Positions 1,287 to 7,868 of a DNA stretch of 12,925 nucleotides are shown in pieces (positions within the stretch are counted from its first letter, which is position 1; each line of letters starts with the position of its first letter). Origin of the DNA: an uncultured Alphaproteobacteria bacterium (GTDB lineage Bacteria > Pseudomonadota > Alphaproteobacteria > Reyranellales > Reyranellaceae). Under the pieces are notes generated by a model. That model saw only the letters and a program-made list of their open reading frames with translations. It had not been told where the DNA came from and did not search any database. Position numbers and translations under genes: made by a program. The stretch spans positions 1 through 12,925 of the forward strand of contig CAIYWM010000983.1 of NCBI GenBank assembly GCA_903929895.1, in the 5' to 3' direction.

Positions 1287-2336
1287 CTACGCCTTCACGG
1301 CGTGCTCGATGACCTTGCGCATGACCGTGGGCAGCGCGCGTTCGTCCAGCCGGTCGAGCGCGGACCAGCTCGTGCCGGGCGCCAGCGCCGCCAGCCGGCC
1401 TGTCGTCGCCATGGCGCGGGCAATCGTGAGTTCCAGGTGGAAGTGCGTGAAGGTGTGACGCACCAGGCCGTCCATCACCACCCAGCGCGCCGGCACCGGG
1501 GCTTCGGTGAGTGCCATGGCTTCCACGAACGGGCCCTCCCGCCAGGCGCTCGACGGCACTTCGTCCATGCCGCCCAGCAGTCCCTTCGCCGGGCGCTTGC
1601 GCAACAGGACGGCGCCGTCCTTGCGCAGCAGCACGAAGGCAAGGCCGCGGCGCGTCGGCTTCCCGGCCTTGGGCGCGCGGCGCGGCAGCTCTTCGGCGAT
1701 GCCCTGCCGGCGGCCCTTGCAGCCCTGCATCAGCGGGCAGATGACGCAGCGCGGGGTGCGCGGGATGCAGACGGTGGCGCCCAGATCCATCATCGCCTGG
1801 GCATAGTCGCCGGCGCGCTGCTGCGGCACCAGCCGGGCGGCGCGGACCTGGATGTCGGGCTTGGCGTCGGGCAGCGGCGTGTCGATGGCGTAGAGGCGGG
1901 CGATCACCCGCTCGACATTGCCGTCGACCGCCGAGGCGGGACGGTCGAAGCCGATGGCCTGGATCGCCGCCGCCGTGTAGGGGCCGACGCCGGGTAGCGC
2001 GAGGAGGCCGGCTTCGTCCTCGGGAAACCGGCCGCCATGGTCGTTGGCGACGGCCTGGGCGCAGGCATGCAGGTTGCGCGCGCGGGCATAGTAGCCCAGG
2101 CCCGCCCAGGCCGAGAGCACCTCGTCGAGCGGCGCTTCGGCCAGCGCCTCGACGGTGGGCCAGCGCTCGACGAAGCGGCGGAAATACTCGCCCACCGTGG
2201 CGACGGTGGTCTGCTGCAGCATGATCTCCGACAGCCAGACACGGTAAGGCGCCGTGCGTTCCCCCGGGGCTGCGCGCCAGGGGAGGGTGCGACGATGTCG
2301 ATCATACCAGGCGAGCAGTCGGTCGGCGTGTGTCAT
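1287..2336 (-). CDS. mutY: A/G-specific adenine DNA glycosylase MutY
   Basis: MutY removes adenine mispaired with 8-oxoguanine, part of the GO base-excision repair system. The 349-residue protein shows catalytic Glu37 in SEIMLQQTT, the helix-hairpin-helix LPGVGPYT (114-121), and catalytic Asp138 in VDGNVERV; both catalytic residues fall at the same numbers as in E. coli MutY. The iron-sulfur cluster ligands C190, C197, C200 and C206 have the expected C-x6-C-x2-C-x5-C spacing. The C-terminal Nudix-like domain that senses 8-oxoG includes GLLGGMDEVP (about 252-261) and HTFTHFH (294-300), the counterpart of the FSH loop. The start is the ATG at 2336-2334; no convincing ribosome binding site lies upstream. 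It is transcribed divergently from the DUF721-DsbA gene, 52 bp away, and converges on ccrM. Confidence 0.97.
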   Translation of the reverse strand: MTHADRLLAWYDRHRRTLPWRAAPGERTAPYRVWLSEIMLQQTTVATVGEYFRRFVERWPTVEALAEAPLDEVLSAWAGLGYYARARNLHACAQAVANDHGGRFPEDEAGLLALPGVGPYTAAAIQAIGFDRPASAVDGNVERVIARLYAIDTPLPDAKPDIQVRAARLVPQQRAGDYAQAMMDLGATVCIPRTPRCVICPLMQGCKGRRQGIAEELPRRAPKAGKPTRRGLAFVLLRKDGAVLLRKRPAKGLLGGMDEVPSSAWREGPFVEAMALTEAPVPARWVVMDGLVRHTFTHFHLELTIARAMATTGRLAALAPGTSWSALDRLDERALPTVMRKVIEHAVKA

Positions 2337-2388: not shown

Positions 2389-3465
2389 ATGCGCGAAAAC
2401 GGCTTCCGTGCGATCGGCGGTCTGGCCCAGAAGCTCACATCGGGCATGGCCCGTGATGGAGCCAAGGGCGGCCGCGGCGCTTCCCTCATTCGACTGAAGG
2501 CCGATTGGCCGGCCGTCGTGGGGCCTGAACTGGCGCGCACCACGCGCCCCGACGCGCTGCTGGCGGGGCGCGGCGCACGGGCCGGCAAGGCCCTTCGTTT
2601 GAAGGTGTCCGGGGCCGCCGCCCTCGAGGTCCAGCACAGGAGCAGCCAGATCGTGGAACGGGTGAATGCCTATTTCGGGCACAGGGTCATCGACGACGTG
2701 CGGATCGTGCAGGGCGTCATCCCGGGGCCGCCCCCGGCCCGCCCGGCATCGCGCCCCGATCCCGTGGCCGTGCAGGCGGCGGCCAGCCGCACGGCGGCCG
2801 TCCAGGATCCCGATCTGCGCGCCGCGCTGACCCGGCTGGGGGCGCGCATCGCCTCCGGGCGTCGCAGCTTCCTGCTCGGTGGCCTTGGCGCGCTCTGTCT
2901 CGGCGACGAGCTCCGTGCGCAACCGCAAGGACCGGCCCGGTTTCTCGATCCGCTGCCCGGCGATCACGTTCTGGGCCGTCCCGACGCGCCCAACGTGCTG
3001 ATCGACTATGCCTCGTTCACCTGCCCGCATTGCGCCACCTTCAACAACGCGGTCATGCCGGCCCTGAAGCGGGACTGGATCGACACCGGCAAGCTGAGGC
3101 TGGTGCATCGCCATTTCCCGTCGGATGCGCTGGCCACGCGCGCCAGCCTGCTGGCCGAGTGCGCCGGGCCGAACGGGTTCTTCGCCGCCGTCGACACGCT
3201 GTTCCGGACCCAGGTCCAGTGGCTGACCGCCGCCGACCCGGCGGCGGAACTGATGACCGTCCTGGCGGGGCAGGGGGTGAGCGAGGCCGCGGCGCAGGCC
3301 TGCGTCGCCAACGACCGGCTTTTGGACAAAGTCATCGCCGACGTGCAGTCCGGCCAGGCGCTGGGCGTCAATTCCACCCCGACCGTGTTCATCAACGAGC
3401 AGGGGTACGGCAATCCGGGTGGAATCGACGCCATCGCAGCGATTTTACGTCAGGTGGGCCGTTAA
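2389..3465 (+). CDS. DUF721 (DciA-like) - DsbA-family fusion protein
   Basis: One open frame of 358 codons carries two families usually encoded separately. Residues about 5-110 are a DUF721 domain, with GFRAIGGLAQKLT, LKADWPAVVGPELA around W40 and RVNAYFGHRV. DUF721 proteins include DciA, which loads the replicative helicase in the cytoplasm. A Pro/Ala-rich linker (about 110-138) and a helix DPDLRAALTRLGARIA (140-155), typical of the end of alphaproteobacterial DUF721 proteins, follow. Directly after comes a Tat-like signal: R158-R159, SFLLGGLGALCLG, then a possible cut near LRAQ (175-178). The DsbA-like domain has CPHC (C212, C215), a second cysteine pair (C258, C305) and cis-Pro331 in NSTPTVF. 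I chose ATG 2389 because it gives the family-typical start; upstream ATGs at 2254 and 2335 overlap the mutY start. No stop separates the domains, so this is either a true fusion or two products with an internal start (GTG 2764 or 2770). Confidence 0.85.
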   Translation: MRENGFRAIGGLAQKLTSGMARDGAKGGRGASLIRLKADWPAVVGPELARTTRPDALLAGRGARAGKALRLKVSGAAALEVQHRSSQIVERVNAYFGHRVIDDVRIVQGVIPGPPPARPASRPDPVAVQAAASRTAAVQDPDLRAALTRLGARIASGRRSFLLGGLGALCLGDELRAQPQGPARFLDPLPGDHVLGRPDAPNVLIDYASFTCPHCATFNNAVMPALKRDWIDTGKLRLVHRHFPSDALATRASLLAECAGPNGFFAAVDTLFRTQVQWLTAADPAAELMTVLAGQGVSEAAAQACVANDRLLDKVIADVQSGQALGVNSTPTVFINEQGYGNPGGIDAIAAILRQVGR

Positions 3466-3468
3466 CAT

Positions 3469-3498
3469 TTGACTCCCCACAGGCGGAATTCCCAAGAT
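3469..3498 (+). promoter_or_regulatory. Possible promoter for second DsbA gene, with GANTC
   Basis: TTGACT (3469-3474) matches the -35 consensus at five of six positions, and a poor -10 candidate CAAGAT (3493-3498) lies 18 bp downstream. The -35 overlaps a GANTC site (GACTC, 3471-3475), so methylation by CcrM could affect it. The 55-bp gap allows either a separate promoter or read-through from the upstream gene. Support is weak because the -10 is poor. Confidence 0.25.
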
Positions 3499-3520
3499 GT
3501 AGTGGAGAGGGCAGAGTAAA

Positions 3521-4177
3521 ATGCGGAATATCTTGATCGTCGCCGGCGGAGTCGTGGCGGTGGCAGCGATTGCGGCCGGCGTCTACTTCGGTACCGGCGC
3601 GCCCTCGTCCCCGCCGCCGGTTGCGGCCGTTTCCGCCCCCAACAAGGCGGCTCTGGAGAGCGTCCAGCCCGGTGACCACGTGCTGGGCGACCCCAAGGCG
3701 CCGATCACGGTGATCGAGTATGCGTCGCTTACCTGCTCGCACTGTGCGCATTTCCACACGCAGGTCCTGCCCGAGATCAAGAAGAAGTGGATCGATACCG
3801 GCAAGGTGAAGCTGGTCTATCGCGACTTCCCGCTCGACCAGGTCGCCGCCAAGGCAGCGCAGATCGCCGAGTGCGCCGGCAACGACAAGTATTTCGGCGT
3901 GGTCGACATCATTTTCCGCGGCCAGGCGCAATGGGCGACGTCAGCCGATCCGCTGACTGAGCTCGCCAAGCCGCTGCGCATCGCCGGCATGGGCGAGAAC
4001 GAGATCAAGGCCTGCCTCGCCAACGACGCGATGAGCAATGCGGTGATCAACGACTACAAGGGCGGCGAGGCAATGGGCGTCAATTCGACGCCGACGCTGT
4101 TCATCAATGGCCAGCTCTATCGCGGGTCGCGCTCGGTCGAGGAACTCGACGGCGTGTTCTCCAAGCTCGCCAAGTAG
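3521..4177 (+). CDS. DsbA-family thiol:disulfide oxidoreductase
   Basis: The 218-residue protein should act in the periplasm, forming or exchanging disulfides in exported proteins. Residues 1-24 are a hydrophobic signal peptide or membrane anchor (RNILIVAGGVVAVAAIAAG), followed by a Pro/Ala-rich stretch. The thioredoxin-fold domain carries the active site CSHC (C72, C75) and cis-Pro191 in NSTPTLF. C118 and C165 form a second pair, as in the alpha-type DsbA proteins described from Wolbachia, where an extra disulfide exists. Aligned without gaps to the DsbA half of the preceding gene, roughly half the residues are identical over about 148 positions, so the two are tandem paralogs. A good ribosome site, GGAG followed by AGGG (3504-3511), precedes ATG 3521. 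The protein could instead act as a reductase or isomerase; sequence alone does not decide. smc follows after 34 bp. Confidence 0.93.
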   Translation: MRNILIVAGGVVAVAAIAAGVYFGTGAPSSPPPVAAVSAPNKAALESVQPGDHVLGDPKAPITVIEYASLTCSHCAHFHTQVLPEIKKKWIDTGKVKLVYRDFPLDQVAAKAAQIAECAGNDKYFGVVDIIFRGQAQWATSADPLTELAKPLRIAGMGENEIKACLANDAMSNAVINDYKGGEAMGVNSTPTLFINGQLYRGSRSVEELDGVFSKLAK

Positions 4178-4211: not shown

Positions 4212-7200
4212 ATGGTCCAGTTCGACAAGCTCCGGCTCGCCGGTTTCAAGTCCTTCGTCGACCCGACGGAGCTCGTCATCGAGCCCGGCATGACCGGGAT
4301 CGTGGGGCCCAATGGCTGTGGCAAGTCGAACCTCGTCGAAGCGCTGAAGTGGGTGATGGGCGAGACGTCCGCCAAGCAGATGCGCGGCTCCGAGATGGAG
4401 GACGTCATCTTTGCCGGCTCCGGCCAGCGGCCGGCGCGCAACATCGCCGAGGTCATGCTGTCGCTGGACAACAGGACGCGCACCGCGCCCGCCGCGGTGA
4501 ACGATACGGACCAGCTCGACGTCGTGCGTCGCATCGAGCGCGGCCACGGCTCGGCCTATTCGGTGAACGGTCGCGAGATCCGGGCCCGTGACGTGCAGAC
4601 GCTGTTCGCCGACGCCGCCACGGGGTCGCGTTCCACGGCACTCGTCAGCCAGGGCCGCATCGGCACGCTCATCAACGCCAAGCCGGCCGATCGTCGTTCG
4701 GTGATCGACGAGGCGGCCGGAATCACCGGCCTCTATGCCCGTCGCCACGAGGCCGAACTGCGCCTGCGCGCCGCCGAGCAGAACCTCGCCCGCGTCCAGG
4801 ACGTGCTGCTGGCCCTTGAGGAACAGCACAAGGGTCTGAAGCGCCAGGCCCGCCAGGCCAGCCGCTATCGCAACCTCTCCGACCATATCCGTCGTGCCGA
4901 AGCCGCCGTGCTGGCGCTGAAGCTGGCCAATGCCGAGCGCGATCTGGCCGTCTCGGCCGAGCGGCTGAAGGAAGCCGAGGCTCAGGTCGCCGACCTGACG
5001 CGACTGGTCGGCCTCGCCACCACCGCGCAGGCCGAAGCCGCGACGGCGCTGCCGCCGCTGCGCAACGACGAAGCGGCCGCCGCCGCCGCCCTGCAGCGCC
5101 TGCGCGTGGCGCACGATGCGCTGACCGCCGAGGCCGAACGCGTGGCCGCCGCCCAGCTCGAAGCCGAGACCCGCCTGCACCAGACCGAGCAGGATCTGGC
5201 GCGCGAGCAGGGCCGCAAGAACGACGCCGCCACCGCCATTTCCGACCTCGGCGCCCAGCGCGAGCGCCTCGAAGAAGAGCGTTTCGGCGAAGAGGATCGT
5301 GCCGCCGCCGCCGAGGAGGCGCGCGACACCGCGCGTAGCGAGACCAGCGTGGCCGAGGTCGAGCTCGATCGCCTGACCCGCCAGATCGCCGACGACGAGG
5401 CGTTGCGCCAGAGCGTTTCGCGCGAGATCGCTGAGCTTCAGGATCGTCTGCGCCGCCTGTCGTCGCGCCGCGATGAAGTCAGCGCGCAGCAGCAGCAGCT
5501 CCAGGTCGAACTCTCCAACCTGCCGGCGTTGCCTGAGGTCGAGGCTGAACTCGAAGCCGCCCGCGCTGCGCTGGAAGAGGCGCGTTTCAGCGGCCAGGAG
5601 GCGATCGAAGCCGCCCGCGAGGCCGAACGCTACGAATCCGATGCCGCGCGGCAGGCGGTCGCCCGGGCCGAAGCGGAACGCCTCGACATGGAAAAGGCCC
5701 GTACGGCCGAACGCGAGGCCGCGGAGGCGAGCCACGCCATCGCCGTCGAGGTTCTGCAGAAGACCAATGCGCGCCTGACCAAACTACGCGCCGAGGAAGC
5801 GGGCGTCGCCGCCGCGCTGAAGTCGGCGGCCGATTCGCTGTGGCCGCCGCTGCTCGACGCGCTCAGCGTCGAGCCGGGCTTCGAAAAGGCCCTGGGCGCG
5901 GCGTTCGGCGACGAGCTCGAGGCTTCGTCGGATCGCGGCGCGCCGGTGCATTGGCTGCCGCTCGAGGCGCTGGCCGAGACGCCGGCCTTGCCCGAAGGCG
6001 CAACGCCGCTCGGTGCGCATGTCGGCGCGCTGCCCGAGTTGGCCCGTCGCCTGTCCTTCATCGGCATCGTGGCCAACGACGAGACGGGTGCGGCGCTGCA
6101 GGGCGCCCTCAAGCCCGGCCAGCAGCTGGTCACCCGCGAGGGCGCCGTCTGGCGCTGGGACGGCTACACGATGCGGGCCGGTGCGCCGTCGACCGCTGCG
6201 GTGCGGCTGAGCCAGCGCAACCGGCTGGCCGAGATTCGCTTTCAGATCGACGGTATCGTCGCCGAGCAGACGGTCGAGCAGGCGCGCGTCGATGCCGAGA
6301 AGACCTGGCTGGCCGCGGCCCGTGACGCCGAGAAGACCTGCGTCGACCAGGCTCGCGCCTATGAGCGTAGCGTGGCTGACGCCGCGCGTCGCAAGACCCA
6401 GGAGGCCGGCGAGGCGACCCGCGCCGCCGAGCGCGCCGCCCAGTCGGCCATCGGCACCGCCGAGCGCCTGGCCACGCAGGCCCGCGACCGTCACGTCGAG
6501 ATTGCCCGCCGTACCGACCAGCTGCGCACCCGCCTCGCCGGCATTGAGACGGTCGTGGCCGAAGTGCTGGGCGACATCGCCGAAGTCGAGATGCGCCGGA
6601 CCTTCCGCGAGGCGCGCCTGTCGTCGATCGCCGACACCCAGGCCGACCGCGCCGAGGCCGGTGCTCTGCGTGTCCGGATCGCCGAACTGCGGGCGGCGCT
6701 GGTAGAGGCCGAGGGCCAGTGCGACCGTCTCGCGCGCGAGTCGAAGATGCGGGTCGAGCGCCTGGCGCAGATCGCCCAGGATCACGAAGGCTGGAGCAAG
6801 CGGCTGCGCGAGGCGGACGGCCAGATCGTCGAACTCGACGCACGGCGCGAGCAGACGGCGGCCGCGATCGCCGAACTGGCAGCCAAGCCGGCGGAGATCG
6901 AGGAGAAGCGGTTCGTCCTCGGCGAGGAGATCGACAAGGCCGAAGGTAACCGTCAGGAGGCGGCCGACCGGCTGGCGATCGGCGAGACCCGTCTGGCCGA
7001 GGCCGACAAGGCGCTTCGCCAGGCAGAGACCGAGATGGGCCAGGCGCGCGAGACCCGTGTCCGCCGCGAAGGCCAGGTCGAGCAGGCCACGAAGGATCGA
7101 GAGGCGGTCGTCGAGCGCATCGCCGAGCGCCTGCGGTGCGAGCCCGACGGCGTGATGGCGCTGGCCGAGGTCCAGTCGCTCGACGAGCTGCCGGATCTCG

Positions 7201-7868
7201 AGAAGGCCGAGCACAAGCTCGAGCGGCTGGTGCACGAACGCGAGACGATGGGCGCCGTGAACCTGCGGGCCGAGGAAGAGGCCAACGAACTCGAGCAGCA
7301 GATCACCGCCATGACGGCCGAGCGCGACGACCTGGTCGCCGCCATCGGTCGTCTCCGCCAGGGCATCCAGAGCCTCAACCGCGAGGGCCGCGAGCGCTTC
7401 CTCGCCGCCTTCGAGCAGGTCAGCGGCCACTTTCAGCAGCTCTTCACCAAGCTGTTCGGCGGCGGCAAGGCCGAGCTGCGGCTCACCGAGTCGGAGGATC
7501 CGCTCGAGGCCGGGCTCGAGATCCATGCCAGCCCGCCGGGCAAGAAGCTGCAGGTCATGTCGCTGCTGTCGGGCGGCGAGCAGGCGCTGACGGCCCTGTC
7601 GCTGTTGTTCGCGGTGTTCATGACGAACCCGGCGCCGATCTGCGTGCTGGACGAGGTGGATGCGCCGCTGGACGATCTGAACGTGGAACGCTTCTGCGGC
7701 CTGGTGAACGACATCGCCGGCCGCACCGACACGCGCTTCCTGATCATCACCCACCATCGCGTCACGATGGCGCGCATGGATCGCCTCTACGGCGTGACCA
7801 TGGCCGAGCGGGGCGTTTCCCAGCTCGTCTCGGTCAACCTTCAGGAGGCCGATCGCATGGTGGCCTAG
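4212..7868 (+). CDS. smc: Chromosome segregation/condensation ATPase Smc
   Basis: Smc dimers entrap and organise DNA on the nucleoid with ScpA and ScpB, neither of which is encoded in this window. The 1218-residue protein has the full architecture. The N-terminal ATPase half has Walker A GPNGCGKSN (32-40). A long coiled coil rich in Ala, Glu and Arg covers about 165-540. The globular hinge lies at about 543-672, beginning LWPPLLDALSVEPG. The returning coil runs about 675-1010, with the conserved GAVNLRAEEEANELEQQI near 1013. The C-terminal half has the ABC signature LLSGGEQALTAL (from 1118) and Walker B VLDEVDAP with D1147-E1148. Length is slightly above the usual 1150-1190. The start ATG 4212 gives the family-typical N-terminus; the ribosome site is weak. 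The 34-bp gap to the DsbA gene suggests co-transcription. The gene ends at a strong terminator. Confidence 0.98.
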   Translation: MVQFDKLRLAGFKSFVDPTELVIEPGMTGIVGPNGCGKSNLVEALKWVMGETSAKQMRGSEMEDVIFAGSGQRPARNIAEVMLSLDNRTRTAPAAVNDTDQLDVVRRIERGHGSAYSVNGREIRARDVQTLFADAATGSRSTALVSQGRIGTLINAKPADRRSVIDEAAGITGLYARRHEAELRLRAAEQNLARVQDVLLALEEQHKGLKRQARQASRYRNLSDHIRRAEAAVLALKLANAERDLAVSAERLKEAEAQVADLTRLVGLATTAQAEAATALPPLRNDEAAAAAALQRLRVAHDALTAEAERVAAAQLEAETRLHQTEQDLAREQGRKNDAATAISDLGAQRERLEEERFGEEDRAAAAEEARDTARSETSVAEVELDRLTRQIADDEALRQSVSREIAELQDRLRRLSSRRDEVSAQQQQLQVELSNLPALPEVEAELEAARAALEEARFSGQEAIEAAREAERYESDAARQAVARAEAERLDMEKARTAEREAAEASHAIAVEVLQKTNARLTKLRAEEAGVAAALKSAADSLWPPLLDALSVEPGFEKALGAAFGDELEASSDRGAPVHWLPLEALAETPALPEGATPLGAHVGALPELARRLSFIGIVANDETGAALQGALKPGQQLVTREGAVWRWDGYTMRAGAPSTAAVRLSQRNRLAEIRFQIDGIVAEQTVEQARVDAEKTWLAAARDAEKTCVDQARAYERSVADAARRKTQEAGEATRAAERAAQSAIGTAERLATQARDRHVEIARRTDQLRTRLAGIETVVAEVLGDIAEVEMRRTFREARLSSIADTQADRAEAGALRVRIAELRAALVEAEGQCDRLARESKMRVERLAQIAQDHEGWSKRLREADGQIVELDARREQTAAAIAELAAKPAEIEEKRFVLGEEIDKAEGNRQEAADRLAIGETRLAEADKALRQAETEMGQARETRVRREGQVEQATKDREAVVERIAERLRCEPDGVMALAEVQSLDELPDLEKAEHKLERLVHERETMGAVNLRAEEEANELEQQITAMTAERDDLVAAIGRLRQGIQSLNREGRERFLAAFEQVSGHFQQLFTKLFGGGKAELRLTESEDPLEAGLEIHASPPGKKLQVMSLLSGGEQALTALSLLFAVFMTNPAPICVLDEVDAPLDDLNVERFCGLVNDIAGRTDTRFLIITHHRVTMARMDRLYGVTMAERGVSQLVSVNLQEADRMVA

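Follow-up and report, generated by a model that had tools for sequence, protein, structure and literature searches.

Does the open frame that lies between mutY and smc in the window (the whole 12,925-nucleotide stretch of DNA analysed here) truly fuse a DciA-like protein to a DsbA-like protein, and, if it does, how could its product work? The pairing is odd, as a cytoplasmic replication protein is joined to a periplasmic enzyme through what looks like a kept signal, and neither half is evidently useful to the other. The genes of the locus are:

1287 to 2336, minus strand: mutY, divergent and upstream of the fused gene (Pfam HhH-GPD and NUDIX_4).
2389 to 3465, plus strand: fused dciA-dsbA1, one open frame of 358 amino acids plus stop.
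3521 to 4177, plus strand: dsbA2, a DsbA-like paralogue standing alone (49% identity with the fused DsbA domain).
4212 to 7868, plus strand: smc, downstream, an open frame of 1218 amino acids.

We take the first of these to be mutY from its Pfam domains and the last to be smc from the gene order. The 358 codons of the fused gene are counted from the ATG at position 2389, which has a Shine-Dalgarno match (-6.1 kcal/mol); from stop to stop the open frame is 405 codons long. According to the main text of Brezellec 2016 (PMC5109545), PF05258 genes of Alphaproteobacteria sit between mutY and trx-smc, which, together with the unfused loci described below, bears out what a sequence-only reading of this DNA had stated, namely that in relatives the two genes are separate neighbours ahead of smc. 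The two domains of the fused gene, with no stop between them in the window's translation, are:

2467 to 2706, plus strand: DciA/DUF721 domain, residues 27-106 (Pfam PF05258, E 3e-11).
2956 to 3447, plus strand: DsbA-like thioredoxin-fold domain, residues 190-353 (Pfam PF13462, Thioredoxin_4, E 2.2e-35, above the curated cut-off).

These limits agree roughly with residues 5-155 and 185-358, as read earlier from the letters.

We analysed how widely the fused gene is distributed. An order-wide search with a match threshold of E <= 1e-15 returned 76 genomes, 65 of them from the window's genus, which is taken as Reyranella. The fused gene was matched in 59 of these 65, that is, in every genome of the genus with a readable locus, at protein identities to the window of 59-94%. 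In all 58 genus loci that were translated (34 + 24, window included) the junction is open and without stop, and it is still spanned in the two (L019 and L031) where contig ends cut the gene; in the remaining genome, G007, residues 66-358 were matched without stop in the search table alone, untranslated. Translation also revealed the fusion in a genome of another genus of the same family (G458, locus L142), at 53% identity to the window. For motif counts, '59 fused sequences' hereafter means the 58 translated genus sequences plus that of G458. No match was found in six of the 65 genus genomes (G006, G009, G013, G032, G440 and G450); in the first three the contig ends inside smc, and in G032 smc was looked for and not found. 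The single stop-free frame joining both domains, and the presence of the same architecture in sister genomes, both raised by the sequence-only reading, are thus seen across the genus and in G458, which rules out a frame shared by chance. The same reading had considered that close relatives might carry a stop and a new start near residues 150-160; no stop is present there in any of the 58 genus loci, and the starts are taken up below.

Separate dciA and dsbA genes were found in seven genomes, which represent three more genera of this family (G196, G461, G459, G431, G427, G428 and G430), and two further genomes of the family, G429 and G460, gave no match in the order-wide search. A stop codon was found between dciA and dsbA in each of the 86 unfused loci read, which comprise 7 family loci and 79 further ones (by source, 16 loci that include a single family member, 64 from the GTDB set and 6 family loci). 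Among the best 80 of 505 GTDB relatives, 15 were fused, 64 separate and one partial; the fused loci were the 15 best matches, and, being genus genomes already read, they add no new cases. In a class-wide search of 387 genomes, the matches listed were full-length and unbroken in the genus alone. Six genomes (G059, G044, G051, G461, G459 and G431) had first looked fused, or nearly so, as the open-frame column read through stops; their translation revealed a stop between the genes. The DciA-DsbA fusion is real, and it belongs to Reyranella and one genome of a sister genus. An assembly or sequencing error that deleted a stop, which had been put forward as the simpler alternative and would suit the fragmented genome of the window (1031 contigs, 84.46% complete, 6.85% contaminated), is rejected with near certainty because the frame is kept in 59 of the 59 matched genus genomes, including the single-contig G016, G022 and G447.

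The DciA half scores 43.8 bits against PF05258 (curated cut-off 24) and is the sole DciA match in the whole genome, which would fit a role in loading DnaB in cells. By sequence, its match to solved structures is weak (7ykm, 'DciA DUF721 domain', E 0.0011), and, by fold, none of the 50 matches listed has DciA in its title. In the AlphaFold model of the whole chain that we used (107 rows, mean pLDDT 88.5, pTM 0.59; a first, poor model from 31 rows, with pLDDT 64.7 and pTM 0.51, was replaced by it), block mean pLDDT is 88-97 for residues 31-110 of DciA. Helices follow at residues 125-134 and 141-156 and, after a weak stretch, the DsbA fold; the weak parts of the model are the first 30 residues and residues 161-180 (block means 55 and 53). 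The second of these helices ends the DciA half:

2809 to 2856, plus strand: DciA C-terminal helix, residues 141-156, with leucines 143, 147 and 150 (helix in the AlphaFold model).

Its leucine motif is kept in 59 of the 59 fused sequences. As described in PMC12547741, Caulobacter DciA needs Leu163, Leu167 and Leu170 of its C-terminal helix to bind DnaB, the helix itself being essential in vivo; matched by spacing, Leu143, Leu147 and Leu150 would be their counterparts. The fused protein shares with Caulobacter-type DciA the DUF721 domain, the C-terminal leucine helix and the position of the gene between mutY and trx-smc, but continues past that helix with a signal-like segment and then a DsbA domain.

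The nearest solved structure to the DsbA half is Wolbachia alpha-DsbA1 (3f4r/3f4t), both by sequence (E 1.8e-24) and by fold (Foldseek TMt 0.80, E 1.7e-14). The cysteines are found at:

3022 to 3033, plus strand: catalytic CPHC, residues 212-215 (motif in the window).
3160 to 3162, plus strand: Cys258, first of a non-catalytic pair, aligned with Cys97 of alpha-DsbA1 (chain numbering hand-counted).
3301 to 3303, plus strand: Cys305, second of the pair, aligned with Cys146 of alpha-DsbA1 (chain numbering hand-counted).

All four are invariant in 31 aligned sequences, drawn from 34 with L019, L020 and L031 left out and with G455 and G458 absent; a loose text pattern found Cys258 in 49 of the 59 fused sequences, and the alignment is preferred as the basis. 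The non-catalytic disulfide between Cys97 and Cys146 of alpha-DsbA1 is, according to PMC3839904, highly conserved in alphaproteobacterial DsbAs, and the alpha-DsbA1 structure set names a C97A/C146A mutant. Cys258 and Cys305 are predicted to form a second disulfide of this kind, and the alignment of the four invariant cysteines with both disulfides of alpha-DsbA1 fits an oxidising compartment. The fused DsbA resembles alpha-DsbA1 (3f4r, Thioredoxin_4) in fold, in its CxxC and in the non-catalytic cysteine pair, whereas it makes up the C-terminal half of a longer chain, with its signal in the interior of that chain. The catalytic motif is CPHC in 48 of the 59 fused sequences, CPFC in 6 and CPYC in 3. 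In G458 (L142) CPxC is replaced by CAGC and in G455 (L172) by CWSC, each seen once, and redox behaviour may therefore differ in these two branches.

Between the two halves, directly after the DnaB-binding-type helix, residues 156-178 form a signal-peptide-like segment, which, like the helix, the sequence-only reading had overlooked:

2860 to 2865, plus strand: twin arginine R158-R159, start of the internal signal-like segment (RR in 59 of the 59 fused sequences, invariant in the 31-sequence alignment).
2866 to 2904, plus strand: hydrophobic core, residues 160-172, SFLLGGLGALCLG (from charge pattern and hydropathy).
2917 to 2922, plus strand: Ala-Gln, A177-Q178, candidate cleavage site for signal peptidase (no variation among the 31 aligned sequences; AQ at the corresponding point of all 59 fused sequences).

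The ten residues after the twin arginine are uncharged in 58 of the 59 fused sequences. The best 12-residue hydropathy was 1.83-2.82 in these (median 2.39, n=59) and 1.50-3.38 in the heads of unfused DsbAs (median 2.24, n=81), the heads being the 60 residues before the domain, untrimmed to the start codon; the linker just before the core reached 0.92, compared with the core median of 2.39. The succession of twin arginine, hydrophobic core and Ala-Gln suggests a signal peptide that is now internal. Signal peptidase sites follow an AxA rule, under which Leu, Pro and Asp are poor residues at -3; at that position, counted from the proposed cut, the window has Leu and other sequences have Pro or Asp. 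As to the route, the fused sequences satisfy the Tat feature of a twin arginine ahead of an uncharged hydrophobic core. The stretch from the twin arginine through Ala-Gln is 21-24 residues long in the 31 sequences, which is short for a Tat signal. Moreover, a twin arginine precedes the core in only 43 of the 81 unfused DsbA heads and is thus no proof of Tat. Matches to TatC and DsbB are present in the genome; the DsbA half is predicted to be a periplasmic oxidase, which the signal-like segment and the DsbB match would fit. The separate dciA and dsbA genes of other Alphaproteobacteria are alike in order, in families and, in those 43 heads, in the arginines before the core; they are unlike in the stop that separates them at every locus read.

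We compared selection along the gene by dN/dS from 64 pairs, each at least 84% identical. The ratio was 0.084 for DciA, 0.105 for its C-terminal helix and 0.126 for the Trx domain; it was 0.300 for the linker ahead of the helix, 0.262 for the signal segment and 0.384 just past the signal. Both the DciA and the Trx domains are under constraint, and in the signal segment the character is conserved more than the letters.

The export signal kept in mid-chain suggests that the product either extends through both compartments or is split into two. We put at roughly 0.5 the probability that the product is one precursor, with DciA inside and DsbA outside, probably cut at Ala-Gln. In detail, the gene would yield one two-domain precursor, of which the DciA half would stay cytoplasmic with its DnaB-binding helix kept. 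The twin arginine, core and Ala-Gln, probably a signal peptide that once stood at the N-terminus of a duplicated DsbA (see below), would serve inside the chain as a Tat- or Sec-type signal and insert with the N-terminal side in and the C-terminal side out, taking the DsbA domain to the periplasm. Signal peptidase would most likely cut after Ala177, which would leave DsbA1 soluble in the periplasm and DciA, at least temporarily, with a short C-terminal membrane stub. The point of tension is that the DnaB-binding helix directly adjoins the membrane segment: in the window the twin arginine starts eight residues past Leu150, and such closeness of the helix to the signal may hinder helicase loading, which speaks against the cut precursor. 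An internal signal peptide is described in PMC13186574 for a Streptomyces Rieske protein, whose C-terminal domain is transported by Tat. The likeness is that an internal signal moves a C-terminal domain across the membrane; the Rieske protein is, however, polytopic, with a membrane domain ahead of the signal and no replication domain, whereas the fused gene has a soluble DNA-binding domain.

It is possible, and we propose it tentatively, that this lineage's only helicase loader is the front half of a membrane-spanning protein. Loading would then take place at the inner membrane or by a loader released from it, loader and periplasmic disulfide enzyme would be made 1:1, and export or cleavage of DsbA would gate the release of DciA. 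The locus offers a case in which two things can be tested: whether an internal signal can follow a folded soluble domain, and whether a replication factor is held at the membrane. Both halves belong to known families. Among the literature matches listed, we found no paper on a DciA/DUF721-DsbA fusion or on a Reyranella DsbA; an earlier report is possible. The main text of PMC5109545 uses neither 'fused' nor 'thioredoxin' and has 'fusion' once, for a two-hybrid construct, and the searched passages of PMC9825169 mention neither thioredoxin nor DsbA. Annotation may easily name such genes after one half only.

It is also conceivable, but rather unlikely, that the signal stays uncut, and that the intact chain holds the helicase loader permanently at the inner membrane, tethered to a periplasmic oxidase. 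The conserved hydrophobic run with arginines ahead of it would serve as such an anchor, the often poor residue at -3 may slow cutting, and low dN/dS in both domains is consistent with an intact chain. However, the presence of Ala-Gln in every fused sequence is what would be expected of a cut site in use, and a core of only about 12 residues is short for a lasting membrane span. Tethering of the loader to the membrane, an idea of the sequence-only reading, is a possibility; nothing observed here supports the other idea of that reading, a link between envelope redox chemistry and replication.

Another way to two products from one frame would be a start in the linker, giving DsbA1 with its own N-terminal signal beside a full-length or unstable fusion. 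We scored in-frame ATG, GTG and TTG codons. At least one of these lies 20-30 codons ahead of the twin arginine in 55 of the 59 fused sequences, and in 14 a start codon lies no more than five codons from it, including an ATG two codons before it in four (L023, L026, L162 and L172); separate translation would thus be possible in many species. Some relatives also have a fair Shine-Dalgarno sequence, as in L021 (offset -27, -7.8 kcal/mol). On the other hand, no start position is common to all 59, the commonest offset occurring in 30, and L028 (single-contig G016) and L142 have no start codon within 45 codons of the twin arginine. The only two candidates within that distance in the window (offsets -32 and -30) are both without a Shine-Dalgarno match. 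GTG, furthermore, is a frequent valine codon in GC-rich genes of this kind. Same-residue codon likeness was 0.52-0.66 for residues 148-177, compared with 0.76 for the whole gene; since the linker codons are less alike than the gene average, no conserved initiation site is apparent. Internal initiation does not appear to be a general route, though single species may use it, and we consider translation into two products an unlikely explanation of this gene.

We regard it as highly improbable that the whole chain is cytoplasmic, with the DsbA domain now a redox or binding module for DciA. The long branch of the fused DsbA clade (see below) would allow that its role has shifted, as would the two members with CAGC or CWSC rather than CPxC, yet the signal-like segment and the non-catalytic cysteines would in that case drift freely, and both are kept.

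The origin of the fusion can be approached through dsbA2. In our trees the fused DsbA domain and dsbA2 are paralogues, and all fused DsbA copies form one clade (support 100/100). The branch that carries it is long, at 1.1 changes per column in one tree and 0.69 in the other; judged by these trees, the fused DsbA is a paralogue of its downstream neighbour and has evolved quickly. In the first tree the fused and second DsbAs group together, apart from G196, but alternative groupings survive the AU tests (p 0.48 and 0.32). A larger tree conflicts with the first, as in it G455 and G458 have their fused copies within the fused clade but their second copies outside. The duplication would thus be placed no more closely than within the family. 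Ahead of dsbA2 lies a further element:

3469 to 3502, plus strand: dsbA2 promoter-like stretch, TTGACT-N18-CAAGATGTAG (nearly invariant in 32 genus loci).

Much of its spacer is also nearly invariant in these 32 loci, and the promoter core is found before the single dsbA of the unfused G196 as well. The stretch has one match in the genome, and the fused copy is therefore without one. Since the fused DsbA is paralogous to dsbA2, the origin was probably a duplication followed by fusion; the likely path is that dsbA was duplicated and that the upstream copy then lost its promoter and start as dciA lost its stop. The sequence-only reading had proposed that loss of the intervening stop and start fused the two genes: a true in-frame fusion it is, and the scheme is changed in that a duplication comes first. 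L020, L022 and L025 carry an extra inverted repeat, possibly a terminator, after the fused gene's stop and ahead of the promoter of dsbA2. In G037 (L037), from the same order, dciA and dsbA are separated by a further open frame, roughly 200 codons long; its THGHLDH run points to a possible metallo-beta-lactamase fold.
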